Shown here: piece after piece, positions 12,501 to 55,596 of the stretch | How the letters are laid out: each line of letters begins with the position of its first letter | Numbering within the stretch: the first letter of the stretch is position 1 | Translations under genes and position numbers: made by a program | Assembly (NCBI RefSeq): GCF_018320785.1 | Contig: NC_054867.1 | Coordinates: forward strand, 55,377,776-55,441,775 | From: Cheilinus undulatus | Taxonomy: Eukaryota; Chordata; Actinopteri; Labriformes; Labridae | Direction of reading: 5' to 3' | DNA length: 64,000 bases | The notes under the pieces: model-generated | The model's database searches: none | Seen by the model: only the letters and a program-made list of their open reading frames with translations | Told to the model about the DNA's origin: nothing

Positions 12501-15208
12501 CCCTTTTCCGATGCCCCCTGAGAAAGGTTCTGTGACCCACATTTGGGCCCTGACCCACCAGTGGAGAACCATAGCTATGTAGTGAAATAGGTTTGATTTC
12601 TGACACAGCCCATGTCTATCTAATTAAAGCCTCAAATTTAGCCTAAAGTAGTATTCAAAGTAAATATATATATATATATATACTCAATGTCAGAGTCCCA
12701 TAATTATCTGTAGTTATATTTTAGCTAAAAGCTGCCCTGCTGTTGTTGTGCATGCCTAAAGTAAAGATGCATTATCAGGCCGTGGCTGCACAAACAAACA
12801 TGAAGAACAGTTGTGTCAGTACTCTCCTCACCCTAGAGGGCAGGATCCTCCTGGTGCTCATGTTCGACCCACTGAACAGCTGAGCCACGTTCCGCTCAGT
12901 GTCCACAGTGAGGCAGACTCTGGTCCAGACCTCTGGATTCAGGTTTGACCAAAACCGGACGGATGGCGTCAGGTACACATCGGTGTAGTAGTACGGGTTT
13001 ATCGGCAGAAAATACCGGTCAGGGAATTCAACACCCACTGTCAAAGGGGTTGTGGATGGACTGAGAGTGAAGAGAGTGCGGATGACTGCTTGATGGGCAG
13101 CGGCCAGGTAACGCAGACACACTGACACACCTGTGGGGAGAGGGAAAGAAGAAATGTGCCTGATTTACTTCACACTCTGCCCCTTGTAACCACAAACTTA
13201 CAAACATGTCACCTAAAAGCATCAACTTTAAGCAGGACAGAAAATACCATGAAAGGATGAGAACATTTCCATCTGGTTTTCATACCAAGACACCTTTTCT
13301 GTCTGGTTATGTAGTCTGTGGATGTGCTCACCTCTGTAAGGAGATGCTGTAGTCCAGTAAGGGTATCTAGTAGTTCTGTAGGGTCGAGTCTTGGGCCTGG
13401 GGGTGGTGTAGGGTCGAGTCTTGGGCCTGGGGGTGGTGTAGGGTCGAGTCTTGAGACTGGGGGTGGTGTAGGGTCGAGTCTTGGGCCTGGGGGTGGTGTA
13501 GGGTCGAGTCTTGAGACTGGGGGTGGTGTAGGGTTGGGTGGTAATATTCATGTCTCTGTAGGGAGTCGCTGAATGCCCGGAGTATGGAGTGTGTCTGAAA
13601 TATGTTGGATAGAGGCGTATTCCTCCTCCATTAGCACTCAAAGTGAACATCTTCCCATTTAGATTTGTTCCAGGATATCCTGAAGAAAAAAAGAGGGAGA
13701 GGAAACAGAAACAAGTCATCAGCATAATATTAAATAATTCCTTTACTCAAATATAATATGATGCTCATGCTCAGTGCAGTGAATGTGTCTCAGTGATTGT
13801 AGTATAAAGACTCCTGTGTCTGGAAGGTCTATTCACTAGTTCATCAGTATTCCTGGCTACCATTACACCATGAAGACAAAAGAACACACAGAGAAAAGGT
13901 TACTGGAAAGTCTAAGTCAGGGGATGGAGACAAGATTCAGCAGCTGAGACGGGAGAGACTCTGCAGACAACAACTGTTGGCCCGGTTCTTCACCAGTCAG
14001 AGCGTTATGGGAGAGTGGCAAAGAGAAACACACTGTTGAAGAAAACTCAGATTCAATCTGGACTAGAGTTCCTTGTGAAGAGGAAGAAAGTTCTTTGGTC
14101 TGATGAGACCAGAATGGAGCTTTTAGACCATCAGACAAGACGCCAAACACTGACATCCCCCAAAACACACCATCCCCACTGTGGAGCATGCTGGTGGCAG
14201 CATTATGAGTTGGGGACGCTTCTCTGCAGCATCACGCTGTGGGGATGCTTCTTGGCAGCATCTTGCTGTGGGGATGCTTCTCAGCACCCGGCCCTGGAAG
14301 GCTTGTAAAGGTAGAGGGTAAAATGAATGTGAAACGGGAGTAAAATTGCCGTGTTTAAGTATGAAATCCTGACTGAGACCTATCCACACAGACTCAGAGC
14401 TGTGACTGCAGTCACTTATTTTACATTACAGATTTTTATTTAATTGACATTACTTTGTAGAAATCAATAAAAGGGTAAAACATCCGAGGAGATGAATATG
14501 TTTTACAGGCACTGTAACCCCAAACAGTGCATCCATAGTGTACTCTGACTTCTTGTCAGATTAAACATAAGCCAAAATTATCAATCAGGTCCAGATAACA
14601 CCTTTGAGTATCTAAGTAAAATTAAGGTTTGAATTGTTTTTAAAAATTAAATCTGGCTAAAAAAGCAACAAACCAATTACATTTGTTATGTTTTAGTTTA
14701 AATGGGTCATGTCGTCTCATTTAGGACGTTCTAATTTAGCTTGAGAATTACAAACAGCTCCAGCCTTTTTGTCTCTTGTGAGATCCTGAAATAAGATGTT
14801 TATCTGGACTTGTAGGGTCAATTCACCTTATCAAGTCCAATGAGATATTCCAAACTAGAAATTATACTAGCAACCCTTCAACTGCACTCGTATTTGTTCC
14901 TCTTTTCACATGACTGCAGCCTAGTTTCCTTGTCAGACATGTTGCACAGGGAGAGCAGCTTTAGATTCCTATCTGCATAAAAACTATGAACTATATGTCA
15001 GGAAGACAACATATGAGTTCCTACCTGGAGTGGTCCACCATGCTCTCGTCGTCCATGATGGTCTTGTTGGCCACGATGATTCACCATCATCGGCCCTTTT
15101 TGCGTGAACTACAAGTTCTGACATAAATCCAGATCCACAGTAGGTGATGAGCAGCGCTGCGGACATCAGGGTCATCACCATGGCAACACAAAACAGCTTC
15201 GTCCTCAT
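6577..15208 (-). CDS. Pentraxin-like gene A (5 exons, repeat-bearing)
   Basis: Exons in transcript order are 15208-15025, 13679-13332, 13130-12832, 7948-7821 and 6790-6577, giving about 390 residues. All introns are GT-AG and the phases (1,1,0,2) match genes B and C. The ATG at 15208 opens a short basic N-terminus and a hydrophobic stretch (LFCVAMVMTLMSAALLI), a signal peptide or signal anchor. Exon 2 begins the pentraxin fold (NLNGKMFTLS) and then carries about five 10-residue Pro/Thr/Arg/Tyr units. Exon 3 has the two cysteines expected to pair in pentraxins (VSVCLRYL and WTRVCLTVD). Exon 4 has GFDGQVTDVQMWDYPL, matching the G-x-WD block of CRP/SAP, and exon 5 has SVITWSSISYSL. The Ca-binding Glu-Gln-Asp loop of CRP is not present. 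NxS/T sequons occur at NIT (exon 2) and NMS (exon 3). A basic C-terminal tail of roughly 35-40 residues is unique to this copy. Pentraxin membership is well supported; ligand and role are unknown. Confidence 0.85.
6945..7743 (+). mobile_element. Truncated hAT-like element (GCAGTGGTTCTCAAC family)
   Basis: Matches the right-hand four fifths of the complete copy at 53761-54743, including the degenerate TTTTGCCACTTTTAACCC interior and the terminus GGCTGAAAAGGTTGAG. It lies in gene A intron 4. Confidence 0.7.
8031..8402. mobile_element. MITE, GCAAAGCTGATGGAT family
   Basis: Shares termini and interior blocks (CAAAGCTCCAG-type, TTCTTTATCAAAAGAAG-type) with copies at 31682 and 45332; a short fragment lies at 24403-24500. 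Gene A intron 3. Confidence 0.55.
9329..9972. mobile_element. MITE nested in the Harbinger-like element
   Basis: Near-perfect inverted termini TTAAAGGTGCAGTGTGTAG and the complement of CTACACACTGTACCTTTAA, with matching continuation to about 25 bp. It contains a SINE. Confidence 0.8.
9616..9802 (+). mobile_element. tRNA-derived SINE, nested
   Basis: Contains a tRNA-like promoter with B box GGTTCGAATCG (about 9670), a conserved body and a 3' poly(A) tail. It is flanked by direct repeats ATTGCGTTTTG (9605-9615) and ATCGCGTTTTG (9803-9813), one mismatch. Confidence 0.88.
11264..12278. mobile_element. Long-TIR transposon with TTAA target sites
   Basis: Inverted arms of about 180 bp (11264-11442 and 12108-12278) start AAGGAACCC and end GGGTTCCTT, flanked by TTAA on both sides (11260-11263, 12279-12282). 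TTAA duplication fits piggyBac- or Kolobok-type elements. No transposase remains in the core. Gene A intron 3. Confidence 0.78.
13376..13533 (-). repeat. Coding 30-bp minisatellite in gene A exon 2
   Basis: Five 30-bp units encode alternating PYTTPRPKTR and PYTTPSLKTR. The position in the gene corresponds to the larger array of gene C, and both share a TPRPYT-like motif. Confidence 0.95.
13780..14516 (+). mobile_element. Internally deleted Tc1-like transposon
   Basis: The sequence follows fish Tc1-like elements in order: TGGCTACCATTACACCATGA, then GTCTGATGAGACCAGAATGG, ACACACCATCCCCACTGTGG, a duplicated GCTGTGGGGATGCTTCT block, and the terminal CAGGCACTGTA. Much of the transposase is deleted. 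Gene A intron 1. Confidence 0.85.
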
Positions 15209-19024: not shown

Positions 19025-19730
19025 CACAGATGAACAAGACACAGGTGTGACAACAAGACACAGGTGTGACAACATGACACAGGTGTGACAACAAGACACA
19101 GGTGTGACAACAAGACACAGGTGTGACAACAAGACACAGGTTTGACAACAAGAAACAGGTGTGACAACAAGACACAGGTGTGACAACAAGACACAGGTTT
19201 GACAACACAAAACAGGTTTGACAACAAGAAACAGCCGTGACAACAAGACAGATGTGACAACAAGACACAAGAGTGACAACAGGACACAGGTGTGACAACA
19301 AGAAACAGGTGTGACAACAAGACACAGGTGTGACAAGACACAGGCATGACAACAAGACAGGTGTGACAACAAGACACAGGTGTGACAAGACACAGGTGTG
19401 ACAACAAGACACAGGTGTGACAACAAGACACAGGTGTGACAACAAGACACAGGTGTGACAAGACACAGGTGTGACAACAAGACACAAGAGTGACAACAGG
19501 ACACAGGTGTGACAACAAGAAACAGGTGTGACAACAAGACACAGGTGTGACAACATGACACAGGTAAGACAACAAGACACAGGTGTGACAACACGACACA
19601 GGTTTGACAACAAGAAACAGCTGTAACAACAAGACAGGTGTGACAACAAGACACAGGTGTGACAAGACACAGGTGTGACAACAAGAAACAGGTGTGACAA
19701 CAAGACACAGGTGTGACAACAAGACATAGG
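19025..19730. repeat. 19-bp minisatellite (AGGTGTGACAACAAGACAC)
   Basis: About 36 units, some lacking 4 bp. Because 19 is not a multiple of three, all three minus frames stay open with the same repeated words; these are not genes. Confidence 0.95.
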
Positions 19731-23365: not shown

Positions 23366-26300
23366 CTACTCCCTGCTTTCATAGGTGTCTTCTAACAGAG
23401 CATTTCCACTGTAGCAGATGGAAGACCATGTAATGGTGGAGCCACGGTAGGACCTGGAAACACAAGTATAACATTGATATAAGTATTTAACCCAGAAGTT
23501 AAGGACGACTGCAGGAAAAATCTGCTGTTTCAAAAGCTTTATTAGCACAGTCATTTTGATCACTTTGATCTTTGTTGATTACTTCTGACAATTTTAACAT
23601 TTCACTCTTTGTTATGCTGATTTTTGCCTCTTGCAACAACCTTTCACCTTTGATTCTGCTGGATTTTACCACTTTTTACCCATTATTGCCTCTCTCAGTC
23701 TATTTCTTGCCCCTGTTCACCAATTTTTGCCACTTTTAAACCCATTTTTTTAAAATTCCAATTCACCACCTTTTCCACCCATTTTTGCCACTTTCTACCC
23801 ATTAAAGTCTATTTAGGAAAAGAGGTTCGCATTTTCAAGAAGGTTATATTCTAGGGCATAAATAATATTTGTTGCTTTGAAAAGTGTGGTTATTATTCAT
23901 GTTAAAAAACATGGTTTCACAGCATAAGTTTACAATGGATCATGATTTCCCTGACCTCCATGGTCCTCCTGTTTGGCTGGGCCCCAGAAAGTTCTCCCCT
24001 TTAACCCCCCTTATAGGCGGGCTTCGGGGGGGATAACCCATGTTAAACCAGATATTTTGTGAGACATGCTGCCGCTATAGCCTTGAACAGCAACACCATC
24101 AATACCAGTAAGCAGCTACCCACTCACAGGTACTTACCCCCTGGCCATGTAGTACAAGACTTCTTTTTGGCTGAGGGGATAATCCCACATCTGGACGTCT
24201 GTCAGCTGACCATAAAAACCTGAAATAGCGATCACAGGCTCACCTGACCACACGTACTGCAAAAACACAGAGAGCATATATGCAGTCATTAGGTCTCATC
24301 TACCAACTGTGAAGAAATGTTCTCCTCAAACCCTCTTGCACAGCTTTTAAGAAGATTCTGATGTCCTCCAAAGCTTTCTTATGTTTCCATTTGTTCTCTA
24401 ACCTTGCAAAGCTGATGGATTTGCCAGACTCCATGTCTGTCATCAGGCAAATCCTTGTTGCAAAGCTCCAATCTGAAATTATTGTGCCGAGTCAGTTTTA
24501 GTGTCTTGGGGTCCTGTAAAGGCACCTGAAGGCACGACCGTGAGCTCCAAATGGATGCTGCTGGATGCAGTGAGTGTGGACCCACCTGTGAGCTGTGATC
24601 CACCAACTGTGGAGGAGACTTGAATGAACTGAAGGCCGGGGGAGCACCAGGTGTATGTGGGATCCAGGCTGAGATGCTCAAGGCGGGTGGGGAAACCTCC
24701 CTCCTGTGGTTCCATGCTGCTCCATATGGAGGGCAGGCATCATCGCCATGGTCTGGAAGAGGAGCACTATTGCTCCAGTCTGGAAGGGAAAGGGTGACGT
24801 GGAGAGTGTGACAACTACAGGGGTACTACACTTCTCTCAGAGCCAGGCAAGGTCCCTGCAGTGATACTGCTAAACAGGATCCATGATCCACTGATCCAAC
24901 ACCAGCGGCCTGAACAGTTAGGCTTTACAGCTAAAAGACAGCATCCTGGCACTTCAGGTCCTCAGTGAGCACTTTCAGGAATTTAATAGAGGGCTGATGC
25001 AGTCTATGTTGAAGCATTTGACTTGGTGAGCAGAGATGCCCTCTGGAGGATTCTGGAGCTCCACAGGATCCCACATTCACTCATCCAGCTGGTGTCTGCC
25101 CTTTATTCTGGTCCAGAGAGTGCTGTGGAGTGTGGTGGCTCCAACCCTGACTTCTTCCCAGTTGATTCTGGGAGCCTCTACACTCTTCAGTACCTGACTG
25201 GATAAAGGGGCGGTAAACCATGGAGTGTCATTTGGCGGTGTCCAGATCACTGACCAGGATTGTGTTGATGATGTTGTGATCCTTGTAGAGACTGTAGATG
25301 TCCTCTCTCCTAACTTGCTGAAGCACTGGGGATGCTCGTCTCCTGGACCAAAACAAGGATCCAGGTGGGGATAGCTTGGATGCTACCATCGAATCTGTGT
25401 CTGTGAATGGTGAGAATGTGGAAGTTGTAGAGCAGTTCACCTACCATGGCAGTGCAATCCAGTGATCTACTGACTGCAAAGCTGAGATCATCTGCAGGTG
25501 CACCTGGAGAGATGAAGGCCTGGAGCAGGCCTGGACAAGGCCCTCAGGAGGCCAGGGCAGTACAGGACCAAAGTTGACGCAGAGAAACTCCAAACGGGGA
25601 ATATACTCACATACCTGTCCTGACCTGATTCTGGTGCTAAAAATATGAAATCTTCCTATTTTGATGTCATTTGGAGCAGCTCATTAGTGGGGATGCTGAG
25701 TAAGCATCCATACTATTGATATTTTCGCATCTGCCATTTTGTTTATTATTCTTCTTCCGTGTCCGCTGTCTCCTCCTTCATACTTTGTCGTATTGACACC
25801 GTTTGAACTTTAAAAAACTCAGTTTCTTCGTCATTCGACTGCTATGACTTTTCTCATTTCTAACTTTAATCATTCTTAAAATATTTAACTTTGTTTAACA
25901 ATGTTAAACAGATGGCAAAATTTCACAAATCTGCACTTTCTTCAACTCCTCATAACTTTGGCACTCCTTGCACTATTTTCACTACTCTATCATACTCTTC
26001 AGCTTCTTGTGCTGTTTTTAGCTAGTTATAATACTTTTTATACTATTTATACTTTTTTTTTTACTAATTTTCTTTTTCTAAAACTCAAATAACATTATTT
26101 CAGATGGGCAAGCCCTTTAAATCCTCTAAATTTGTTTTTTTGTTTACTAAATTCTATATTTTGAGCAATGATTTCACATTGCACTCTTCAGCTTTTATGC
26201 TATTTTCACCTTTTTTCCCCACTATTTTCAGATATTTTCATGGTATTTCCAGCTATTTCTATGCTTTTCAGCCTTTGAATGCCATTTTCAGCTACTTTTA

Positions 26301-29300
26301 TGCTATTTTCAGCTATTTTAAGGCTAATTTCAACTATTTTACGGCTATTATCAGCCTTTTTAGGCTACTTTCAGCTATTTATATCCTTTTTAGCTATTGA
26401 ATGCCATTTTCAGCTACCTTTATGCCATTTTATGCTATTTTTATGCTATTTTCAGCTATTTTTGTGCTTTTGGCTATTTTCAGCAGTTCTTCCACAATTC
26501 AGCTCTCAGCATCCCCACACAATTTCAGCTAAAATTGCAATTGTGATCTAGTTTGGATTGTTTTGACCATTTAAATTCCATTATGGCTATTGAGATCTTC
26601 CCTCTTCTCCTTACAGGAGTGAACAATTCAGCAGTTTAAAAACGTCCCATGGATCCCACACAGGTTTCTCTTCGGTGCTTTCTTGAGGAGAAATTTAAGA
26701 AAAATCTCAGGAAGATATTGGTGAATGAGGCCAAAGTTCAAAGGATCTTTTTGAAAACTTAGACTGGGGGAAAAATCATGAAGTCAGATCATTTTGCAAT
26801 GCCTGCTAAAATTGCTAAAATGCAGAACAGTATGTGCTACTACTTCCTCACCCTAGACTGTAGGATCCTCCTGATGCTCATGTTAGGGCCGCTGAAGACC
26901 TGGGCCACATTGGTCCTGGAGTCCATCGTGAAGCAGAGTCTAGTCCAAATTTCAAATCCCAGATTTGGCCAGAATTGAATGTAAGTTTCCATTGGGTCTG
27001 AGATACTATATCCGAATTTTGTTATTTTGACAAAATACTGTCTGTACTCGAATTTCAGCTCCAGAGGAGTCGTGGATGGATTGAGAGTAAAGATAGAGCG
27101 GATGGTTTTGTCCTTAGAGTCGGCCAGGTAGCGCAGACAAACAGACACACCTGTGGGGAGTGACAGAGAGGTGAAACCAATAAAACAGCAGGAAAGGTGG
27201 AAGTAACAGAAAGTGACTGATGGAAGCTGAGATGATAAAATGTATGGGGGGGGGGTTAACCACAGAATTGGCTGGGCCCTCCGCTGTAATGCTATCAATG
27301 CATGTGTGCTAGCGTCCTGGCTAACAGTTAGCTCATATGAAAGCTAAAAAGTGAGTCAACGATTACTAGGTTCTATTGTTGGAATTATTTATCCATGCTA
27401 CTTTTTGACCCCTTTCCACTCATTTTCCACACATTTTTGCATTTTTATTTAGTCACTTTTAACCATTTTGCCACTTCATGCCTATCAATAGCACTTTTTT
27501 GCCTTTTAAAACAATTTTTGGTGCTTTTTGCCACTTCACAACCTTCGTGTGATTTTTCCCCACTTTTAACCACTCTTGGCAGTTGTTTAACCAATTTTAC
27601 TACTTGATGTCATGTTTAACCAATTTTTACTACTTTTCACCCTGTTTCACTACTTTTTTTGCTGTTTTCAACCAGTTTTTGCTGCCACTTTAGACACATT
27701 TTTTGTCATTTTTAAGATTTGCTGTTTTTTTTACCTTTTTATACAAATTGTTGAAATTAAAAACAGTTTTTGCTGCAACTTTAGACCCATTAGTGCCATT
27801 TTTATCACTTTCAACCTATTTTACCACTATACTTCCATGTCTGCTACTGTTTTGCTACTTCTAACCCATTTTGCTGTTACATACCCTTTTTTTTTCAAAA
27901 CTGCAACAAGTGTTCTTTTTTCTTTTTTTAATTTTCAATCAATTTTTGCTGATTTTTAAACATTTTTATTTTTTTATTTTTTTGCATCTTAACACAGTTT
28001 TGTGTTTTTTAAGCTTTCCAGACATTTTTACCACCATTTTACCACTTTAACCAATTTTTGCTGCTTTACACCCATTTTTGCAATTTTTGGAAATGCTTAA
28101 CCAATTTTTGCTTCTATTTTTGCCTTTTTGTCACATTTTTTAAACAATTTAATTTTTTTTCCAACTACATGTCATTTTTTGTCAGTTTTGCTGGGTTTTG
28201 GATTCTTTTTAATTTTTTAACCATTTTTTTCTGCTTTTCCCATATTTTTTAAAAACTTTTTTTCAACTTCAAACTTTTTCGGATTTGTTTTTAACCTTTG
28301 AAAACATTTTTGCCACACCCTCCACCCATTTTTACCACTTTTAACCTATTTTTGCTTCTTTTGCCCATTTTTGTTGTTTAACAGTCTTTTGCAATGTTAT
28401 AAACCCAAGTTCCACTGCTTTGCCACTTTTAACCCATTTTTGCATTCCATTTTTGCTGTTTTCCCCAATTTTCTTCTCTTTTTCACCATTTGTAATTGTT
28501 TCCAGTTAAGGTTGTCTTAGTTTCTTCTACCTTATTTTCTGGCATCCTGACGCTTGTGCACATCATGGCTTAGCTATTCTGACATTATTTTCCTAAGCAT
28601 GTCTTTCTATGTGCCCATCCTCATTGTCAAAATGACCTAAATAAAAGTAATTGTGTTTAAATCAAATAGGTTTACATTTTGAAAAAAGCTTCATTTGTTC
28701 TTCAGCATTAATACATAAAGTTATTTTTTTGTTTCTTTGACAAGAGTGGTTATTATTCAAGTTAAAAACAAAATATGGAAATCACAGCTTTAAAATGGGC
28801 TCCCCAGATGGGTGGCCTTGTGGGTAAATGATCCATGCTGCCAAAATGTGTTTGATTTACACCACAATCTACAACTGTATTGAAATGTGTATCAGCTAAC
28901 AGCATCAGCTCTCTACTAAGATGAGAACCTCTTCAAAAAAAGTGGAGCCTGTTTCAGTCTGTGTAGTCTGTCAGTGTGCTTACCTGCCAAAGGTGAGGCA
29001 GTCATCATGGGGGACGCGGTGTTGAAAACACCAGGGATAGGACACGCAAAAAAGCGCAGTGACGCACCATCAATCATTGTGAACATCTTCCCTTTTAAAT
29101 TTGTGCCATTTGATCCTGGAAAACAGAGGACAAGCATCAGAATTTGATCAAATCTTCCATTTTACTCAAACAGCATAACCTCAGCTAGTCACAAAAAGAT
29201 GGGTACAAGTGTGGTACAATAATAAAAGTATTTTGAAGAACCAGATTTTTTTAAACATGCAGTTTACTGAAGCCCTACACATACACAATACAGAGCATCC

Positions 29301-31483
29301 ATACATATTAGTTTACGCCATTTTCATGTGAAAACAAAATTCATAGTCGAGACTGCTTTACCCACTACAAGAGGCACAATGTCCGCTTTCAGGGCACCAA
29401 AGAGGACATAGTGTCAACTTTAGTCCACTTACAGGACAACCAAAAAAGAAAATAGTGTCAACTTTAGTCCACTTACAGGACACCAGAGAGGGCACACTGT
29501 CAACTTTAGTCCACTTACAGGACACCAAAAAGGACATAGTGTCAACTTTAGTCCACTTACAGGACAACCAAAAAAGAAAATAGTGTCAACTTTAGTCCAC
29601 TTACAGGACAACCAAAAAAGAAAATAGTGTCAACTTTAGTCCACTTACAGGACACCAAAAAGGACATAGTGTCAACTTTAGTCCACTTACAGGACAACCA
29701 AAAAAGAAAATAGTGTCAACTTTAGTCCACTTACAGGGCACCAAAGAGGGCACACTGTAAACTTTAGTCCACTTACAGGACACCAAAGAGCACAGTGTCA
29801 ACTTTAGTCCACTTACAGGACACCAAAGAGCACAGTGTCAACTTTAGTCCACTTACAGGACAACCAAAAAAGAAAATAGTGTCAACTTTAGTCCACTTAC
29901 AGGACACCAAAAAGGACATAGTGTCAACTTTAGTCCACTTACAGGACAACCAAAAAAGAAAATAGTGTCAACTTTAGTCCACTTACAGGACACCAAAAAG
30001 GACATAGTGTCAACTTTAGTCCACTTACAGGACACCAAAGAGGGCACACTGTAAACTTTAGTCCACTTACAGGACACCAAAGAGGGAACACTGTCAACTT
30101 TAGTCCACTTACAGGACACCAAAGAGCACAGTGTCAACTTTAGTCCACTTACAGGGCACCAAAGAGGGCACACTGTAAACTTTAGTCCACTTACAGGACA
30201 CCAAAGAGGGAACACTGTCAATTTTAGTCCACTTACAGGACACCAAAGAGGGAACACTGTCAACTTTAGTCCAGAATTTCAAAACACTAAACTAAATTTC
30301 CCAGGGAGGTTAAGATTTTATTTAAAGGGATGTTTTTGACCACTTATGGTTTATGGTAACAGCAGAAATACCCAGAAAACATGTTAATTATTTCTTTTAA
30401 ATCCCCCAACTTCAAAGCAAATCCCTTGTCACAAAAATTAAGAAATGCATTTCCTTAAAGTACATGAAATTGATGGAGAATAACCCCTAACATAAGAAAA
30501 ACAAATATCCTGATATTTCTACATGGTATTTATGAAAATTCAAAGGACACCCCTCAACATCGCTATTTAATAAATTCTCCATATTTCAATGGAAATATCA
30601 AAAAAAAGCTAAGCAAATTCTGGTCTAAAAAATAATCAAATCAGATTTCCAAATATTTATAAATATATTTCCCAAATCTCCATGGAAACACCAACTACAT
30701 CAAAGACATTTTTTATTTAATTCACAAACCTAAAACAACTTCCTTTATCCTCAATGGACATTCTGGACAATATCTTAAAAATCAGGAGGGCAGGACTGAT
30801 TGCTATGTTATGTTATGTTCGAGCAGGGTCTTAGGAGGTAAAGCTTCAACCTAAATTAGGAATAATCAGTGTGGGGTTGATTATGTATGATAAGTAGGCC
30901 AGCACACTGCAATATTCTTGGGTTTATGTGGTGAACAAATAGTCTCTCTGGAACAGGTGCCGCATTTACATCCATATTTCTCTCTTTAATTTTACAGACT
31001 CCATATACCTGCCTGAACTATGCTCATTCCCGCCTCGGTATTAACACGTCTCAGTGCGCATGCCTGAAGTATGGGTAGCCCGAGGGACACTAAGCATACA
31101 GAATATAACCTATGACTATAACACACACGGAGCCAAAAGTGTCACAACCAACCCCGGTCTCCCCTAGTATGATTCTTCTAAACTGAGTCATCTATCCTGC
31201 CTCACCAGATCTTTGTCATCGTGTTGTTAGAGAAGTTTCAGAAGCCTTCCCATACCTACTAAAGTGTAAACTGTGTTGTTTTACCGTCGTTTGATCAGAA
31301 AGTCGTCAAACGTGCCCTAAATTCACTTCAGTTCCTACCGGGTGTCCATGATGACGGCGCTGTCGCCCTTGCGGCCCTTTGGACGTTAGATTTCAGGTCA
31401 TGGATGAACGTCAATCCAGAGTTGGCGATGAGCAGCGCTGCGGACGTCAACGTCATCACCATGACAACGTAAAACAGCTTCAT
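23366..31483 (-). CDS. Pentraxin-like gene B (5 exons, no repeat insert)
   Basis: Exons in transcript order are 31483-31339, 29115-28984, 27150-26852, 24256-24138 and 23453-23366, giving about 260 residues with GT-AG introns in phases 1,1,0,2. The start at 31483 (MKLFYVVMVMTLTSAALLI) is the first in-frame ATG and aligns with the hydrophobic leader of gene A. Exon 2 is only 132 nt and has the first beta strand (NLKGKMFTM) but no amplified repeat, so it is the compact form of the family. Exon 3 is exactly as long as in gene A (299 nt) and keeps both pentraxin cysteines (SVCLRYL, RLCFTMD) and an NMS sequon. Exon 4 reads GQLTDVQMWDYPL; exon 5 ends LLEDTYESRE. It is the most diverged in exon 4, with residues changed in the otherwise shared PVIDIPGF segment. 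Extra Cys residues occur in exon 2 (FFACP) and exon 5 (SSICYS). No disabling change was seen, so it is probably functional. Confidence 0.82.
24403..24500. mobile_element. MITE fragment, GCAAAGCTGATGGAT family
   Basis: About 95 bp matching the left part of the element at 8031. Gene B intron 3. Confidence 0.5.
24600..25630 (+). mobile_element. Non-LTR retrotransposon reverse-transcriptase fragment
   Basis: Broken frames read LKAGGAPGVCGIQAEMLKAG, then a PEQ.GFT-like block, DALWRILELHRIPHSLIQ, and LVSALYSGPESAVECG, in the order found in LINE reverse transcriptases (RTE/L1-like). Several stops and frameshifts make it inactive. It lies in gene B intron 3, antisense to the gene. Confidence 0.75.
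25687..26518. mobile_element. DNA element with 14-bp TIRs and TTTTCAGCTA interior
   Basis: Perfect inverted termini GTGGGGATGCTGAG and CTCAGCATCCCCAC bracket an AT-rich element whose right half is a degenerate array of TTTTCAGCTATTTTTATGCT. Gene B intron 3. Confidence 0.75.
27395..28470. repeat. Degenerate TTTTTGCCACTTTTAACCC array
   Basis: T-rich, loosely periodic (about 20-30 bp) sequence in gene B intron 2, akin to arrays at 7.0, 23.6, 33.3, 48.0 and 53.9 kb. Long open frames here are composition artefacts. Confidence 0.75.
29350..30272. repeat. About 42-bp minisatellite in gene B intron 1
   Basis: About 21 units of CAACTTTAGTCCACTTACAG followed by a variable spacer of ACCAAAAAGGACATAGTGT or shorter. 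Spacer length differences break the frame between units. Confidence 0.95.
30275..31335. other. Gene B intron 1, nothing recognised
   Basis: AT-rich to 30780, then mixed sequence with AATATTCTTGGGTTTATGTG and a GC-richer patch at 31030-31170. No exon or element was identified. Confidence 0.35.
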
Positions 31484-34589: not shown

Positions 34590-37500
34590 CTACTTTGCCT
34601 GCTTCTCATAAACGTCCTCCAACAGCGTGGATCCTCTGGCAGAGTAGCTGATGGACGACCAGGTGAGGACGTTTCCAGGGTGCGACCTGAAAAAGACAAA
34701 GGCATCATTTTACACAGGGGTGTCAAACTCAATCACTGCAGGGGCCGGATTCTGAATTTGGGTCTAACCTGAGGGCCTAACAGGGTCGATATTTCACTAT
34801 AAAATGCCAACCTTATTTTCACCAGAAATGAATTACGGGGGTAAGAAACTTGGCTCTGATGATAAATGAGTTTTTTGTTATTAAAAGGTGAACATGATAA
34901 GTTAAAAACTAAAAATCTGAGATAAAAAGTCAAACTTATAAGTTTATAAAGGTAAAAATATGACATTTAAAGTCAAAATAATGTTTTTAAAAGGCAAAAT
35001 ATGAGATAGAACACTGAAACCATGAATTTTAAAAGTCCAAAACTGAGATAAAATTCAAAATCATGATTTTTAACGAGGCAATTTAAATAAATTTTTAATA
35101 TGAGGCAAACATTGAAATCATGAGTTTTAAAAAGGTATTTAAAATAAATGAAAAATCATGCATTTTTAAGGTTAAAAAAAAGAGATCAAAGTCAAAGTTA
35201 GGAGTTGGAAAAGGTCAAAACGTGACATAAAAGTCAAAATCAGGATTTTAAAAGGTCCTAAAACTGAAATAAAATTGAAAATCATACGTTTTTAAGGTAA
35301 AAAAAAAAGAGATAAAAGTTAAAGTTAGGAGTTGAAAAAGGTCAAAACGCGAGATAAAAGTCAATATCATGATTTTAAAAGGTCTAAATAGGATCAATCT
35401 AAAAAGTTAAAAAATGAGATAAAAAGTCAAAGTTATGAGATGTAAAGGTTAAAATATGTAATAAAAAGTCAAAACCATAACTTTTGGTCATAACTGTGAG
35501 ATTCAAAATTGAAAATATAGAGAAAACATGAATTTCTTTCCCACTTTCCTTTTTATCAAATTATTTTTACTGTTTACTTTTTCTAATTTTTATGACTCAG
35601 CGAGGATGTTATAAATTATCAAGGTTAAGTTTACATCTTTATACTGGACGAAATCTGCAGACGTCATACTGGTGGGCCAGTTCTAATAAAAAAAGAATCT
35701 GGTGGGCCGGGTATAACTGCACCACGGGCCAGATTTGGCCCCCGAGCCTTGAGTTTGACACCCCCTATTTAATTCATGCTTAAACACAAGGGCTGAAAAC
35801 GTGTATGTCTAGAACAATAATTTTATATCAAGTCCAAATTAAATATTTACTGTGTCTGATGATACCTAATGAATGCTCAGGATTGTGGTCATAAATCTGG
35901 TTGAATTCTTTCCAAACATGTCTGACCATTAAAAATCACCTTGAACAGATCTGATCTTTTCTCATAAACATGACTCCTACGTACCCGAGGGCTCCACTGG
36001 TCATGTAGTTGAAGACTTCTTTATAGTGGAGAGGATAATCCCACACCTGGACATCTGTCACCTGACCTTCAAAACCTGGAATATCAATCACGGGCTCACC
36101 TGACCACACGTACTGAAAACACACACACATTGAAACACATTAGAGACAGAAGCAACACACACCAAAATGTCTTTCTGGAGATGCTAAAATAGGTGCATTT
36201 AAAAAGCCCCCCCCCCCCAAAAAAAAACATCGTAGTGCAGTGCATTATATTTGTAATTTATGAAGTGTGCTGTGACATTTAAACATTGTAGTAATGCAGG
36301 GGTTGTTTGTGCAAAATCTCAAACAAGCTCGGATAAACACAGGTGTCCTCACCCGAATCTTGAGCATCCTCCTCATGCTCATGTCAGGGCCGCTGAATAT
36401 CTGGGCCACGTTCTTCACGGCGTCCACAGTTACACAGAGTCGGGTCCAGATTTCTGGCTCCATGTTTGACCACAGTCTTATGTTATGTTGCAGTATGAGG
36501 TTGTGCTGACTGTACCTGCTGTAGGTGAGCGCGTAACGCTGACTGTCATAGTATCTCAGTGTCAGAGGAGTTGTGGATGGACTGAGGGTGAAGACTGTGT
36601 ATCCAACACCAAGGACACGCAGACACACCGAGACACCTGCAGGGGTTCAGAGGTTCAGTAAACAAAATGAGTGGCTTTATTTTTCCTTTAAAGTCTCAAG
36701 TCACAGAGATTAACACGTAGAAAAGCAGTGCAGTGCTCAACTCTCGGGAGAACTGGGACAGCCCTCGCACTTGGCGTGAACGCGCATTTTGAGACTGAGG
36801 GTTAAGATTGAGGGTTAGGGGGAGAACTGGGATTCAGCCTAAGTGTGGTTTTAGTCGACGAAAACTCAAAAAATTTCAATCTAGTTTTGGTCAACGAAAA
36901 CTCAAAAAATTTCAATCTAGTTTTAGTCGACAAAAACTCAAACATTTCAGTCTAGTTTTAGTCGATGAAAACTCAAAACATTTTAGTCTAGTTTTAGTCG
37001 ATGAAAACTCAAAACATTTTAGTCTAGTTTTAGTCGATGAAAACTCAAACATTTCAGTCTAGTTTTAGTCGACGAAAACTCAAAACATTTTAGTCTAGTT
37101 TTAGTCGATGAAAACTCAAACATTTCATTCTAGTTTTAGTTGACAAAAACTCAAAACATTTCAGTCTAGTTTTAGTTGACAAAAACTCAAAACATTTCAA
37201 TCTAGTTTTAGTCAACAAAAACTCAAAACATGTCAGTCTAGTTTTAGTCGACAAAAACTCAAAACATTTCAGTCTAGTTTTAGTCAACGAAAACTCAAAC
37301 ATTTCAGTCTAGTTTTAGTCGACAAAAACTCAAAACATTTCAGTCTAGTTTTAGTCAACAAAAACTCAAAAAAATTCAATCTAGTTTTAGTCAACAAAAA
37401 CTCAAAACATTTCAGTCTAGTTTTAGTCGACAAAAACTCAAAACATTTTAGTCTAGTTTTAGTCGACGAAAACTCAAAACATTTTAGTCTAGTTTTAGTC

Positions 37501-40500
37501 GACGAAAACTCGAAAAATTTCAATCTAGTTTTAGTAGACAAAAACTCAAAACATTTTAATCTAGTTTTAGTCGACAAAAACTCAAACATTTTAGTCTAGT
37601 TTTAGTTGACGAAAACTCAAAACATTTCAGTCTAGTTTTAGTCGACGAAAACTCAAAACATTTTAGTCTAGTTTTAGTCGACAAAAACTCAAAACATTTT
37701 AGTCTAGTTTTAGTCGACAAAAACTCAAACATTTTAGTCTAGTTTTAGTCGACAAAAACTCAAACATTTTAGTCTAGTTTTAGTCGACGAAAACTCAAAC
37801 ATTTCAGTCTAGTTTTAGTCGACGAAAACTCAAAAAAATTCAATCTAGTTTTAGTCAACAAAAACTCAAAACATTTCAATCTAGTTTTAGTCGGCAAAAA
37901 CTCAAACATTTTGGTCTAGTTTTAGTCGACGAAAACTCGAAAAATTTCAATCTAGTTTTAGTCAACAAAAACTCAAAACATTTTAATCTAGTTTTAGTCA
38001 ACAAAAACTCAAACATTTTAGTCTAGTTTTAGTTGACAAAAACTCAAAACATTTCAATCTAGTTTTAGTCGACAAAAACTCAAACATTTTGGTCTAGTTT
38101 TAGTCGACGAAAACTCGAAAAATTTCAATCTAGTTTTAGTCAACAAAAACTCAAAACATTTTAATCTAGTTTTAGTCAACAAAAACTCAAACATTTTAGT
38201 CTAGTTTTAGTTGACAAAAACTCAAAACATTTTAGTCTAGTTTTAGTCCATTAAAAGTCCTCACATTTTAGTCTTTACTTTTAGTCCAAGCATTTATTTT
38301 CTTGTCTAAATCTAGTACCAAATCATGGTACTGTGTTCTCTGCCAAACCTGGGGTCCCCGCTTTGTACAGCTGAGAGGCAGAATAGATACAGATGCATTT
38401 TTTTAAGGGCATTTTCGTGCCTCCATTAGACAGGGGAGCAAGTGGACAGAGTCGGAAACAGGGTCAAGAGTGGGGGAGAGACATGCGGCAAAGGGCCCCA
38501 GGCCTTAACCACCAGGCCACCCGCTCCCCAGATGCATTGTTTATGACAGATTTATCCACAGTGGAGAAATATCACGCGTTGTTAATGTCCAACAAAAAAC
38601 TACATTACATTTTAGTCTAGTTTTTGTCGTCTTAACAAAAACTAAACTTAGTTTCTGTCTGTTTTAGTCATCATAGATCTATTTTTGTTAATCTTGGTCC
38701 AGTTTTTGTCATGGAAAAGAAAGGCTGTCGACGAAAATTTTTCGTCACAGTTTTAGTCAACTAAATTAACACTGGGCACCAGGGGTGAAAATGTCCGGAC
38801 AAAAGAAATGCCTTCTAGCTTGACACACGTGTTGATATGTGATGAGCTTGACCTTGCCCGCCACTCTATGGCACATCAGGGTCTGTGATGAATCCTTAGC
38901 TCCCTACATGCCTGAAACTTCAGCACATGACTGTAAATAAAGCCAAGAAAAGGACAATTTAATGTTGGGAATAGATGCTATTGCACTATCTCCACTCTTT
39001 ATAACATGTAAATAAAGGCTCGTCCACATGGAGACAAATTCAGGAGTATACGCAAACGTTTTTTGTCGTAGCGGCGTTTCATCCACACGGAAACAACATT
39101 TTGGAAGGCTGTAAAAGCTACTCTTTGAACTTTTTCAAAACAAACGGACAAACAAGAAAAGAACGGAAATATATCATTTTTGTCTCCGTGTGGACGAGGT
39201 CAAAGTCAAGCAAAATATCCTGTCTCCACTGTTCCTGGTCCATGTCTTTGCACGAGAGAAATAAAGAAAAAGTTTAATAACAGGGTCAGATTAAAAAAAA
39301 TAGTTAATGCTCTGCTGCTTCCCTGTGCATGATGATTGGATACGACAGAGGGGAGCAGTGGAGTCAAACTCAGTTTTCAATGAGGTGTGATTGTTCATGC
39401 AGCATGCTGTAAGACAATAAAGTTTCATTTCCTTACCTCTGGTCGTGGGGGCAGGGTAGGTGGTGTAGGGCTGGGCAGTGGTGTATCCCCAGTTCCGGTT
39501 CTTATAGGGAATGTAGGGCTGGGTAGTGGCGTATCCCCAGTTCCGGTTCTTATAGGGAATGTAGGGCCTAGGGTTGGTGTATCCCCAGTTCCGGTTCTTA
39601 TAGGGAATGTAGGGCTGGGTAGTGGCGTATCCCCAGTTCCGGTTCTTATAGGGAATGTAGGGCTGGGTAGTGGCGTATCCCCAGTTCCGGTTCTTATAGG
39701 GAATGTAGGGCTGGGTAGTGGCGTATCCCCAGTTCCGGTTCTTATAGGGAATGTAGGGCTGGGTAGTGGCGTATCCCCTGTTCTTGTAGTGAGTGTAGGG
39801 CCTAGGGGTGGTGTATCCCCAGTTCCGGTTCTTATAGGGAATGTAGGGCTGGGTAGTGGCGTATCCCCTGTTCTTGTAGTGAGTGTAGGACCTAGGGGTG
39901 GTGTATCCCCAGTTCCGGTTCTTATAGGGAATGTAGGGCTGGGTAGTGGCGTATCCCCAGTTCCGGTTCTTATAGGGAATGTAGGGCTGGGTAGTGGCGT
40001 ATCCCCAGTTCCGGTTCTTATAGGGAATGTAGGGCTGGGTAGTGGCGTATCCCCAGTTCCGGTTCTTATAGGGAATGTAGGGCTGGGTAGTGGCGTATCC
40101 CCAGTTCCGGTTCTTATAGGGAATGTAGGGCTGGGTAGTGGCGTATGCCCAGTTCCAGTTCTTATAGGGAATGTAGGGCTGGGTAGTGGCGTATCCCCTG
40201 TTCTTGTAGTGAGTGTAGGGCCTAGGGGTGGTGTATCCCCAGTTCCGGTTCTTATAGGGAATGTAGGGCTGGGTAGTGGCGTATCCCCAGTTCCGGTTCT
40301 TATAGGGAATGTAGGGCTGGGTAGTGGCGTATCCCCAGTTCCGGTTCTTATAGGGAATGTAGGGCTGGGTAGTGGCGTATCCCCAGTTCCGGTTCTTATA
40401 GGGAATGTAGGGCTGGGTAGTGGCGTATCCCCAGTTCCGGTTCTTATAGGGAATGTAGGGCTGGGTAGTGGCGTATCCCCAGTTCCGGTTCTTATAGGGA

Positions 40501-43500
40501 ATGTAGGGCTGGGTAGTGGCGTATGCCCAGTTCCAGTTCTTATAGGGAATGTAGGGCTGGGTAGTGGCGTATCCCCTGTTCTTGTAGTGAGTGTAGGGCC
40601 TAGGGTTGGTGTATCCCCAGTTCCGGTTCTTATAGGGAATGTAGGGCTGGGTAGTGGCGTATCCCCAGTTCCAGTTCTTATAGGGAATGTAGGGCTGGGT
40701 AGTGGCGTATCCCCAGTTCCAGTTCTTATAGGGAATGTAGGGCTGGGTAGTGGCGTATCCCCAGTTCCAGTTCTTATAGGGAATGTAGGGCTGGGTAGTG
40801 GCGTATCCCCAGTTCCGGTTCTTATAGGGAATGTAGGGCTGGGTAGTGGCGTATCCCCAGTTCCAGTTCTTATAGGGAATGTAGGGCTGGGTAGTGGCGT
40901 ATCCCCAGTTCCAGTTCTTATAGGGAATGTAGGGCTGGGTAGTGGCGTATCCCCAGTTCCGGTTCTTATAGGGAATGTAGGGCTGGGTAGTGGCGTATCC
41001 CCAGTTCTTGTAGTGAGTGTAGGGCCTAGGGGTTGGGTATCCCCTGTTCTTGTAGGGAGTGTAGGGCCTAGGGGTGGGGTATCCCCTGTTCTTGTAGGGA
41101 ACATAGGGTCTGGTAGTACTGTCCCACCATCTCCTGTAGGCTGGTCTGGCAGAGCCGAATCTGTGTCTCCTGTAGGGAGTAGGGACAGGCCAGGATGTAG
41201 CTGTAGGAGTAAAATCGGGGGAGTAGAGGGATATTCCTCCTTTACCAGAGGACAAATGGACCATCATTCCATTTAAATTTGTTCCCAAGGCTCCTGAAGA
41301 AACAATAAGATTAATTTAGCTCAATGAAGTATGACAAAAAGACATTTATTAGTTACCATACTGAGACAAGATGATTGTAATGATATTTTAAGTTGGTACA
41401 ATGGCAAGTAAAGACTGTGCAATTCACAGAATGCTGCAGAAACACCTGGAATATTCCACAGTAGTGAATTGGTAACAGGTGGTAGTGCCATGAGAGAGTA
41501 AAAGGAGGAGTCCTGAAAGACTCAGTCATTCACAGACAAAGCTAGCATGTGGCTCTTCACTTTGTTAAAGAAAAGCTGTGGAGAGAGTAAGGTGAGTGCT
41601 GCACAGACTGAAAAATGTCCAGAGGCTGCAGACGTCAGACATCCAGAAACACACACATGTAAGACTACGTTCCATCCGTACAGCCTAAACCAGGGGTGTC
41701 AAACTCAAGGCTCAGGAGCCAAATCCGGCCCGTGGTACAGTTATACCCGGCCTGCAAGATCATATCTTATTCTTATTATAACTGGCCCTAAAATATGAGG
41801 TCTGCAGATTTCCTTCAGTATAAAAATGTAAACTTAACCTTGATGATATAAAATATCCTTAAGTCATAAAAATGTAAAAAATATAAAGAGTAAAAAATAA
41901 CCAGATGAAAGGAAATGTGGGAAATTCATTTGTTTTAATTTCATATTTTTGGACTTTTATTTTATGTTTTGACCTTTTATATTTATTATTTTGATTTCTT
42001 ATCCCATATTTTGACCTTTTGTATTTATTATTTGGACTTCAAGCTAATATTTAGGCTTTAAATTTATTATTATGATTTTTTATCTCACATTTTGACTTTG
42101 CCAATTTATTATTTTGATTTTTGTCTAATATTTTGGCTTTCTTTTTTATATTTGACTTTTTATCTCATATTTTAACCTTTTATGTTCACAATTTTAAATT
42201 TCAAGTCATATTTTGGCCTTAAAAACATGATTGTGACTTTCTTTTTTATATATTTGCCTTTTAAAAGCCTTATCCTAGCATCTAATTTTGTGTTTTAACC
42301 TCTTGCACTAATAAGTTTGACTTTTTATCTCAGATTTTGAGCCTTTTACCTCATCATTTTGGCTTTTTAAATCTCAAAATTATCCATCATCAGTGCTTAT
42401 TTTCCTTCATAATGTATTACGATCGAAAATGAGGTGGACAGTTTAGTTTAATGTGGACCCTGTTAGGCCCTCAGGTTAGACTTTCATTCAGAATCCAGCC
42501 CCTTCTGTGGTTGAGTTTGACACCCCTGGCCTAAACTATAAAATCATTGGTTCAAAATATCCTTTCATAAACATGGAGATAAGAGATATATTTAGAAATG
42601 TAATCTAGCAGCCAGTTAGCTGGGTAAAATAAAGGAATTTAAATAACAGGGGAAAATAACTTGAAGTTATCCTTTTTATAAGGTCGGTTATTTCTCAGTT
42701 ATGAAAATCCAAATTGATCACAAACATGATTTAACTTGAAAATAACACCAAGGAGAGTCTCCTTCACCAGCTATCTCTCTAATTACTGGTCAGCTGCTGA
42801 GACGTTTAACTAGCATTCAACCAAGTTTGAATGCTTTATTAAAGAGCTGAGACGTCTAAGTGTGCATGAGCCTATAGATGTCTGCAGCCAGGCTCCCCGA
42901 AAAATGAGAACAAAAAGATCAGGAGCTCTTCAAAGATCATAACTGCAAAAACAAAAATCACCATGCAGGTTATTGCAAACAAAGTTCATGGTAAAAATGG
43001 AAGAAAAACTGATATGAAAGGCACTCTAATGCAAATCCTTTATCAGACGAGGGGTCTCAGAGTCTTCATCAGGGTATCCTGGGTTAGTCAGAGTTTACAT
43101 ATATACAGTATATATGTAGGAATTCCCTGTGTTTTCGCTTATTTTGTTTTTTTACATCACCTGAAGTTTGAGCTCCTGCACTCAGAGGACCTGGTCGTTT
43201 TGTTCTCTTAAACCAGCGTTACTCAACCCTGCTCAACCAAAGAGCCATACAGTTGAAAAAAACCTTTGCAAAAGCCACCATCTAAGTGGTGAAAAACTGC
43301 AAAAATGGGTTAAAGTGGCAATAAAAATAAGTTAAAGGGGGTAAAATGGTCAAACAGCAGCAAAAAAGGGTGAAATGGGGCAAAATCTGCATAAAATGCC
43401 AAATACTGGGGGAAAAGTGGCAACAAATGGGGAGAAAAGGTGGCAAAAATGGTCAGAAAGTGGTAAAAACATGACAAAAATATGGGCAGAAGGCCACAAA

Positions 43501-44034
43501 AGGTGGGAAAATGGGAAAAAAGCAGCAGAGAGTGGCTAAAATTTCGGGGGAAAGCGGCATTTAATATCAAAATGCAGCTTAAATGGGTAAAAAGTGGCAA
43601 AAATGGGGGAAACGCAAGATAAAAGAGTCAAAACTGGGCATAAAGCATTAAAAAGAGGTGTCAAAAGTAGGCTTAAAGCAGTAAAAACTGATTAAAAGTG
43701 GCAAGAAATTGCAAATAAGGGCAATGGAAATATGCAGTTGACAGTTAAAGCCAACTGTAAAAGTGTGGGAAACAAACTGATTAATGTGACATGCAGGGAT
43801 AATTTCTGAGGTCAAAGTTTCCCTTTATTTAAGGTTTTCTGGGGGAATAAATTCAGACATAAAAGAGCCATACTGTGTTCTGTCTGTGTTACCTGGGGTG
43901 GTCCATGATGCCATGGTCAGAGGCGATGCAGTTGTAGCAGACGGATAAGCAGATGTAGAGATGAGCAGCGCCGCTGTCATCAGAGCCAACATCACATGGA
44001 GGTGAAGCAGCTTCATCTTCATCAGAATCTTCAT
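34590..44034 (-). CDS. Pentraxin-like gene C with giant 14-16-residue repeat exon
   Basis: Exons in transcript order are 44034-43893, 41293-39437, 36636-36353, 36112-35985 and 34686-34590, giving about 835 residues with phases 1,1,0,2 as in A and B. Exon 2 is 1857 nt and stays open throughout: after NLNGMMVHLSS and a Tyr/Arg-rich segment come about 34 units of consensus GYATTQPYIPYKNRNW, with 14-residue variants such as GYTTPRPYTHYKNR. The pentraxin core follows, with both cysteines (SVCLRVL, TRLCVTVD), GFEGQVTDVQVWDYPL and NVLTWSSISYS, ending EKQAK. The start is uncertain: ATG 44034 is the most upstream, but ATG 44016 (MKLLHLHV) aligns with the gene B start and better fits a TATA-like site at 44068-44074. 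The NMS sequon of A and B is lost (DMS). Exon 5 is 97 nt; sequence beyond its stop is still similar to the coding tail of gene A. The product should be very Tyr-, Thr- and Lys-rich. Confidence 0.82.
34715..35765 (+). mobile_element. hAT-like element, GGTGTCAAACTCA family, copy 2
   Basis: Same termini and internal degenerate repeat as the copy at 138. It lies in gene C intron 4, with its end only 28 bp from the exon 5 acceptor. Confidence 0.8.
36848..38262. repeat. 36-bp satellite with GTCGAC core, gene C intron 2
   Basis: About 39 units of CTAGTTTTAGTCGACGAAAA plus CTCAAAACATTTTAGT, 35 or 36 bp. Many carry the palindrome GTCGAC. It forms the left part of a dispersed element also present, unexpanded, at 56095-56510. 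Confidence 0.95.
38263..38785. mobile_element. Dispersed element carrying the satellite, interrupted by a SINE
   Basis: Sequence after the satellite (CATTTTAGTCTTTACTTTTA through GTTTTAGTCAACTAAATTAA) matches 56190-56510. The match is interrupted exactly by the SINE at 38400-38529. Confidence 0.75.
38400..38529 (-). mobile_element. tRNA-derived SINE with exact target duplication
   Basis: Minus-strand copy of the SINE family at 9616. It is flanked by 9-bp AGATGCATT at 38391-38399 and 38530-38538. The related locus near 56325 has a single AGATGCATT and no SINE, serving as an empty site. Confidence 0.9.
39017..39200. mobile_element. Short MITE (CTCGTCCACA ends)
   Basis: About 184 bp with inverted termini CTCGTCCACATGGAGACAAA and TTTGTCTCCGTGTGGACGAG. 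Gene C intron 2. Confidence 0.8.
39470..41110 (-). repeat. Coding 48/42-bp minisatellite in gene C exon 2
   Basis: About 34 tandem units, mostly 48 bp, with interspersed 42-bp variants (14 codons). Both lengths are multiples of three, so frame is kept. Units differ mainly by R/W at one codon (CGG versus TGG) and G/A at another. A higher-order block of seven 48-bp units plus one 42-bp unit (378 bp) is duplicated: the variant with a GCC-for-CCC change appears at 40141 and again at 40519. Confidence 0.97.
41427..41605 (+). mobile_element. Tc1-like transposon fragment
   Basis: GAATGCTGCAGAAACACCTGG and the following bases match 58826-58905 of the larger Tc1-like element, then continue with CAGTCATTCACAGACAAAGC, expected of that family. 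Gene C intron 1. Confidence 0.65.
41691..42528 (-). mobile_element. hAT-like element, GGTGTCAAACTCA family, copy 3
   Basis: Inverted orientation relative to the other two copies. It is flanked by a perfect 8-bp target duplication GCCTAAAC (41683-41690 and 42529-42536), which places the family with hAT elements. It lies in gene C intron 1. Confidence 0.88.
42537..43212. other. Gene C intron 1, nothing recognised
   Basis: Mixed AT-rich sequence with a small palindrome TATATACAGTATATAT near 43097. No exon was identified. Confidence 0.35.
43213..43785. mobile_element. Repeat, GTTACTCAACCCTGCTCA family, copy 1
   Basis: Shares its left end, an interior array of GGGCAAAAAGTGGCAAAAAT, and its right block (GTGTGGGAAACAAACTGA) with 56651-57290. 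Gene C intron 1. Confidence 0.7.
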
Positions 44035-45984: not shown

Positions 45985-46875
45985 TGTACAGATTTATAAA
46001 ACGCGCAAGCAAGATTTTAAATCGCGCGTGCGAAATAAAAAAATGCGCGTGCGAGATTCTAAAACGTGTGTGCGAGATGTTAAATCGGGCTTGCGAGATA
46101 TTTAATCGCGCGTGCGATATTCTAAAACGCGCATACAAGTTATTAAATCGCACGTGCAAGATACATAAAGGCACCTGGGAGGTACTTAAACGCACGTGCG
46201 AGATATTAAATCGCACATGCGAGATACTTAAACGCGCGTGCGAGATACTAAGATGCACGTGCGAGATATTAAAACGCGCGTACAAGATACTAGAACGCGC
46301 ATGCGAGATATTAAAATGCGCGTGCGATATACCAAAACGCGCGTGCAAGATACTAAAATGCAGGCGCGAGATACTCAAATGTGCGTGGGAGGTACTGAGA
46401 CGTGAGTGCGACATTTTCAATCGCGCGTGCGTGACACTCAAACGCGCATGCGAGATACTAAATCAAGCGAGCGAGATATTAAATCGCACATGCGAGATAC
46501 TTAAACGCGCGTGCGAGATACTAAAATGCACGTGCGGGATATTAAAACGCGCGTGCGATATACCAAAACGCGCGTGCAAGATACTAAAATGCACGTGCGA
46601 GATACTACGACGTGCGTGGGACATACCAATGAGGTGGGTGCAAGAAACTAAATCACGCATGCGAGATACTTAAACGCGCGTGCGAGATATTAAATCGCAC
46701 ATACAAGATACTAGAAGGCAGGCGCGAGATATTAAAACGCGCGTGCGAGATACTAAAATTCACGCGCGAGATACTCAAATGTGCGTGGGAGGTACTGAAA
46801 CGTGAGTGCGACATTTTCAATCGCGCGTGCGTGACACTCCAACGCGCTTGCGAAATACTAAATTGCGTGCGCGTA
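45985..46875. repeat. CpG-rich 21-bp satellite
   Basis: About 42 units of GCGCGTGCGAGATACTAAAAC with frequent C/T and G/A changes. The 21-bp period equals seven codons, so both strands show long frames (for example ACEILKR words). Confidence 0.95.

Positions 46876-50469: not shown

Positions 50470-55596
<5,127 letters not shown>

Follow-up and report, generated by a model that had tools for sequence, protein, structure and literature searches.

A predicted pentraxin domain with a repeat-filled internal loop in a tandem gene cluster of Cheilinus undulatus

The GQ[ED]QD stretch of C-reactive protein (CRP) carries calcium ligands. The genes of vertebrate CRP and SAP are described as having two or three coding exons (PMC5446266). 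Another related system is ADGRG4 (PDB 8b55), whose pentraxin-like domain lacks the typical calcium site and has strands 3 and 8 joined by a cysteine bond; the same protein has serine/threonine repeats, in a stalk that comes after the domain and connects it to a membrane receptor, and in laminin-G domains the beta2-3 loop has been reported to form part of the ligand-binding rim (both in PMC10687090). Here we describe three tandem genes, named A, B, and C in this analysis, from a 64,000-nucleotide stretch of the Cheilinus undulatus genome (C3:55377776-55441775, called the window hereafter), for which a pentraxin domain with a lengthened internal loop, filled with repeats in A and C, can be proposed with high confidence. 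The genome comprises 1.17 Gb in 46 contigs, of which C3 measures 57.17 Mb.

The three genes are all on the minus strand (A 15208-6577, B 31483-23366, C 44022-34590), and their exons, five per gene, were placed by tblastn within the window using exon pieces as queries. GT-AG borders are found at 12/12 introns, which is no independent count because the exon-4 donors were fitted, and the phases 1, 1, 0, 2 are common to A, B, and C. Since those donors were chosen to fit frame and phase, the models are predictions; the corresponding proteins have 390 (A), 260 (B), and 831 (C) residues. When exon 3 of A was searched against the whole genome, at least three matches were obtained at E 0.001, all of them the window copies, and a similar search with exon 4 of C gave the A, B, and C copies plus a weak match to a C8 pentraxin (E 0.047). 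The three genes represent tandem duplicates predicted to code for divergent pentraxin-domain proteins, with the following features:

43893..44022, minus strand: gene C exon 1, hydrophobic N-terminus, ends ..WTTPG; found by window tblastn with A exon 1 (E 0.003); donor GT
39437..41293, minus strand: gene C exon 2, strands 1-2 and then a 596-residue repeat linker; AG/GT bounds, phase 1 to 1, 1857 bp
39483..41120, minus strand: gene C repeat array, 7 units of 14 amino acids and 28 of 16; commonest unit ATTQPYIPYKNRNWGY, 20 copies
36353..36636, minus strand: gene C exon 3, VSVCL.. to ..MLKIR
35985..36112, minus strand: gene C exon 4, YVWSGEPVIDIPGFEGQVTDVQVWDYPL..
34590..34686, minus strand: gene C exon 5, ends ..NVLTWSSISYSARGSTLLEDVYEKQAK, then stop
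31339..31483, minus strand: gene B exon 1, hydrophobic N-terminus
28984..29115, minus strand: gene B exon 2, strands 1-2 followed by a repeat-free linker of 22 residues
26852..27150, minus strand: gene B exon 3
24138..24256, minus strand: gene B exon 4
23366..23453, minus strand: gene B exon 5, includes the stop
15025..15208, minus strand: gene A exon 1, hydrophobic N-terminus, ends ..WWTTPG
13332..13679, minus strand: gene A exon 2, strands 1-2 followed by a linker of 93 residues that contains 10-residue units
13377..13534, minus strand: gene A 30-bp repeat array, 5.3 copies
12832..13130, minus strand: gene A exon 3
7821..7948, minus strand: gene A exon 4
6577..6790, minus strand: gene A exon 5, frame continues 39 residues beyond ..EKQ (only 2 in C)

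By alignment, the insert lies between strand 2 (GGIRLY, ASLRFF, GGISLY) and VSVCL, the segment with the first conserved cysteine. As this cysteine strand is strand 3 by the ADGRG4 numbering, the insert corresponds to the beta2-beta3 loop. An earlier note on this DNA had exon 2 encode the first strand and exon 3 start at the second; strand 1 is indeed in exon 2, but this exon holds two strands (GTNLNGKMF and GGIRLY in A) and the insert sits between strands 2 and 3. The same note had placed the repeat inside the domain rather than at a terminus, in agreement with the domain strands found on both sides of it. With the same boundaries, the loop of B measures 22 residues, that of A 93, and that of C 596, and in 11 other pentraxins of the genome it measures 8 (three from C8) or 9 (eight from C20). 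Loop 2-3 is thus lengthened in all three predicted proteins, with tandem repeats filling those of A and C, and this loop-internal repeat build is absent from the other pentraxins compared here. Among the listed titles and beginnings of abstracts from a literature search, which are no proof of absence, no pentraxin with an internal repeat was found. The sizes first given for the insert (a few tens of residues in B, about 50 of units in A, and about 530 of units in C) are right within rounding, the C units summing to 546 residues, and the unequal amplification between copies is evident from the linker lengths and from arrays that differ in unit and copy number. Exon 2 itself runs from phase 1 to phase 1 and has 348 bp in A, 132 bp in B, and 1857 bp in C, where its position at 39437..41293 on the minus strand, bounded by AG and GT, agrees with the coordinates in the note.

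Regarding the ends of the proteins, A, B, and C have a hydrophobic stretch at the N-terminus and no 19-residue hydrophobic window starting after residue 9. This stretch is probably a signal peptide, a membrane anchor being an alternative. The stop follows the domain in 3/3 models and no receptor region with seven membrane helices was found, further spliced exons not having been searched for. The mostly basic 39-residue extension of A after ..EKQ (6577-6696, minus strand) might be a real tail or the read-through of former untranslated sequence.

The assignment to the pentraxin family depends on spliced proteins and profiles. Single-exon searches of Pfam and PDB gave no pentraxin match, and a genome-wide PF00354 search found 40 places, none of them on C3. 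As single exons gave no such match, the pentraxin label needed testing on spliced proteins, and these, together with the profiles, overturned the conclusion "not a pentraxin" that the single-exon and genome-wide nulls had suggested, which was dropped. After splicing, B (26.8 bits) and C (27.0 bits, with exons 3-5 only as query) exceed the PF00354 cut-off of 25 in Pfam, but A does not, and the matches begin at position 144 of the 194 in the profile and are confined to its C-terminal quarter. A core profile of A, B, and C, from which the linkers of A and C were removed, was aligned by hhalign with 11 pentraxins of the same genome (the eight from C20 and three from C8, out of the 40 PF00354 places) over 180 columns, with E 5.3e-19 (a single comparison) and a probability of 99.1. 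In a PDB search, the profile of A, B, and C alone retrieved the C-reactive protein 4pbo (E 5.6e-5, profile positions 3-192), human CRP reaching just 0.11; when two C8 pentraxins were added to the profile, SAP and CRP were found at 1.8e-22 and 4.1e-22, scores that are strong largely because those two were included. Comparison of exons 4-5 with 14 loci by tblastn gave a best E of 9e-11, the top matches being the C8 (28.97 Mb) and C20 pentraxins. A cysteine pair, C46 and C114, is invariant in 3/3 cores and, numbered as C33 and C95, in 5/5 when the two C8 pentraxins are considered. A tree built from 14 cores places A, B, and C on one side of a branch with support 100/100, with a warning by the program that long branches meet, and it gives no firm order inside the trio. 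The spliced Pfam, hhalign, and PDB profile results therefore support the pentraxin fold family suggested at the outset.

Other clusters of pentraxin matches in this genome lie at C8:28.96-28.99 Mb, C20:6.68-6.86 Mb, and C21:2.09-2.12 Mb. The C8 matches at 28974041 and 28973617 have one TGA each, which may reflect introns read through. An intron before strand 3 was considered as a character common to the C8 genes and dropped, as in two of these genes the intron lies beyond the cysteine strand, roughly 8 residues further on.

When compared with CRP and SAP, the products of A, B, and C are alike in core homology, the cysteine pair, a W-D-Y/F-x-L motif, the C-terminal strands, and the hydrophobic N-terminus, but they are without the calcium-binding loop and the signature, have a linker of 22-596 instead of 8-9 residues, and are modeled with five coding exons each rather than the two or three given for CRP and SAP (PMC5446266). 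The GQ[ED]QD motif of the calcium loop is present in 0/3 of the A, B, and C proteins, where the stretch is a 14-column alignment gap, and in 11/11 of the other genome pentraxins, although in c8a and c8b it spans an analyst-made exon joint. The C8 and C20 pentraxins (11 examined) thus keep both this motif and loops of 8-9 residues. Similarly, the signature H/SxCxS/TWxS (as given in PMC5446266) is found in 0/3 and 9/11, respectively. With both the calcium loop and the signature lost, calcium-dependent phosphocholine binding by A, B, and C would be unlikely. The earlier note mentions neither of these losses, nor that the surroundings are rich in minisatellites. ADGRG4 shares with them a pentraxin-like domain without a typical calcium site and the presence of repeats in the same protein; however, its repeat stalk comes after the domain (PMC10687090), whereas A and C carry the repeat within the domain, beyond which their models end. 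The joint profile of A, B, C, and the two C8 pentraxins matches 8b55 weakly (E 5.3e-5).

The C array is made of 35 units (7 of 42 bp or 14 residues and 28 of 48 bp or 16 residues), followed by a 15-residue tail. Tandem Repeats Finder describes it as a period of 48 with 32.7 copies at 39464-41007, and that of A as a period of 30 with 5.3 copies (10-residue units). In C, 20/35 units are identical, also at the DNA level; the seven 14-residue units are more variable, with silent and replacement sites. Unit 34 resembles a hybrid of the 14- and 16-residue kinds, and the array contains two mutually similar blocks of 8 and 7 units, a pattern that unequal crossing-over would leave. The linkers of A and C are both strongly basic. 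That of C (596 residues) has 83 K/R/H versus 2 D/E and 150 Y/W/F, with an isoelectric point of 10.0, and is rich in Y (18.3%), P (13.8%), T (13.8%), N (10.9%), and Trp (6.5%); that of A is dominated by T (25.8%) and P (20.4%). By composition, O-glycosylation is plausible for the A linker and less so for that of C. The earlier note suggested a tether or stalk projecting from each subunit; a loop anchored at both ends is no stalk in the usual sense. Mussel foot protein 1 is also built of short tandem repeats with much Tyr, Pro, Thr, and Lys, with no folded domain around the repeat, and the resemblance of A and C to it is in composition only.

Concerning the origin of the repeats, a 78-residue piece of the C repeat had no other match in the genome below E 0.07. 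A 71-residue piece of the A repeat found itself and then, among the 150 scored of 963 candidates, 43 weaker matches, the best of them with E 0.004 and 38% identity. The C array DNA, searched against the window (with exon 2 of C masked) and 14 loci, matched only the A array, weakly (25 bp, 88%, E 0.058). When the A linker was aligned with the first 85 residues of that of C, the protein score was reached by 2/1000 shuffles and the DNA score by 6/500 codon shuffles. Composition, shuffles, and the 25-bp match would lean toward a single repeat origin for A and C. A PF23642 match of C exon 2 (28 bits, cut-off 27) lies in the repeat, with no stretch significant alone, and was taken as low-complexity.

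The best explanation as a whole, which is tentative and falls a little short of even chances, might be that a basic, aromatic loop replaces the lost calcium site in binding. The A, B, and C proteins would be secreted, and the pentraxin sandwich would fold and close around the insert, which would leave and re-enter the domain as a disordered loop. Binding would have shifted from the lost calcium site to the basic, aromatic-rich beta2-3 loop, and this loop would bind polyanionic surfaces, such as mucus glycans and microbial or egg coats, by means of many weak charge and aromatic contacts, its length being set by unequal crossing-over among near-identical DNA units. A binding function of the repeat loop, considered on its own, is possible but rather unlikely. 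In a more elaborate and clearly speculative version, a new kind of pentraxin would have given up its calcium site, and each subunit or ring of subunits would bind or cross-link mucus, egg coats, or microbial surfaces through many arms without calcium; the rim loop of the sandwich would here serve as an expandable, double-anchored, cationic aromatic arm, tuned in length by a fast-changing coding minisatellite.

Several results weigh against the repeat-filled pentraxin loop and its proposed role. The whole comparison comes from one genome. The PF00354 score of A is 16.6 bits, below the cut-off; exon 3 of A and of B reached only E 0.006 and 0.010 against the 14 loci, where exon 3 of C matched no pentraxin credibly. 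A fold model made for exon 3 (100 amino acids, three rows) is uninformative, with a predicted local distance difference test (pLDDT) of 43.6. Gene B, which is without the repeat, is open like A and C. In addition, the 27 C units starting with ATTQ have two variable sites, with 2 replacement and 0 silent changes, and this replacement-only variation points to recent homogenisation and is no mark of constraint on the repeat.

Neutral growth accounts for the array nearly as well as the binding loop. In this explanation, an array would have arisen from a minisatellite-prone stretch in a length-tolerant loop, so that a functional core carries a passenger repeat; it is a serious possibility, if not a probable one. 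Arrays with a period of at least 10 and no shorter than 100 bp, those in exons among them, make up 11.9% of the window, versus 0.54% across 23 other loci that include six C8 pentraxin loci, a difference of about twenty-fold; three neighbouring loci, excluded from this background, have 3.3, 0, and 1.5%. Arrays are also found inside the first intron of B and the second of C, and their presence in introns and surroundings indicates that the mutational supply is local and not exon-specific. It is this hot spot, together with nearly identical C units whose commonest kind differs only at amino-acid-changing sites, that makes neutral growth a strong rival, and long internal exons have been reported to carry often tandem repeats coding for disorder (PMC12457776). 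However, A and C are both basic and Tyr/Thr/Pro-rich despite their unequal unit lengths, which argues against a mere passenger, as does the likeness of their linkers in the shuffles and the weak 25-bp match, although a shared seed without function could produce these.

Another explanation is gene decay, or an exon 2 that is normally skipped, which appears distinctly improbable. Skipping would keep the frame, since exon 2 is in A, B, and C a multiple of 3 bp with the same phase at both ends, and the C array is crossed open by 3/6 frames, so that its openness is cheap and constitutes weak coding evidence. Better evidence than openness comes from the conserved flanking strands, splice sites and phases, from the ratio of replacement to silent divergence (dN/dS), and from a unit spacing in multiples of 3. 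In each gene the five exons join open with GT-AG borders (the fitted exon-4 donors included), the dN/dS of exons 3-5 is 0.40, 0.48, and 0.49 at dS 0.59-0.74, the cores thus evolving under constraint, and skipping exon 2 would delete two strands of the sandwich. Regarding spacing, departures from a multiple of 3 are found in 0/27 and 0/4 cases in the two exonic arrays, and 7/8 other window arrays, assumed to be non-coding, show one or more, in two cases owing to a unit of 19 or 41 bp. Such spacing is needed for the core alone and says nothing for the repeat. Finally, the copy number could be wrong in the assembly, with a collapsed or expanded repeat, as 20/35 units are identical in DNA and such arrays are hard to assemble; this is very improbable, because scattered variant units and the two similar blocks of 7-8 units favour a real long array, and A and B are independent of the array of C.

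Arrays outside the exons include these:

5105-5571, 19033-19730, 29381-30273, 36848-38248, 45997-46862, 51365-51876, 52486-52799: other window arrays, two of them intronic (B, C)

The 21-bp array at 45997-46862, with about 41 copies, has long open stretches on both strands (254 and 185 amino acids); it is probably no gene and illustrates how repeats yield long open frames. The window lies about 1.7 Mb from the contig end, and an open frame at 55034-55339 on the plus strand matches the ADP-ribosylation-factor family (PF00025, E 9e-9).

If expressed, gene C would demonstrate that a compact, disulfide-bonded, immune-type vertebrate domain can accommodate almost 600 residues, some three times the size of the domain itself, in a single loop. 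This would then be a natural test of the tolerance of a beta-sandwich to internal insertion, and also of whether selection tunes coding minisatellites or they are simply tolerated. Three tandem copies in which this loop has 22, 93, or 596 residues would allow a direct comparison.

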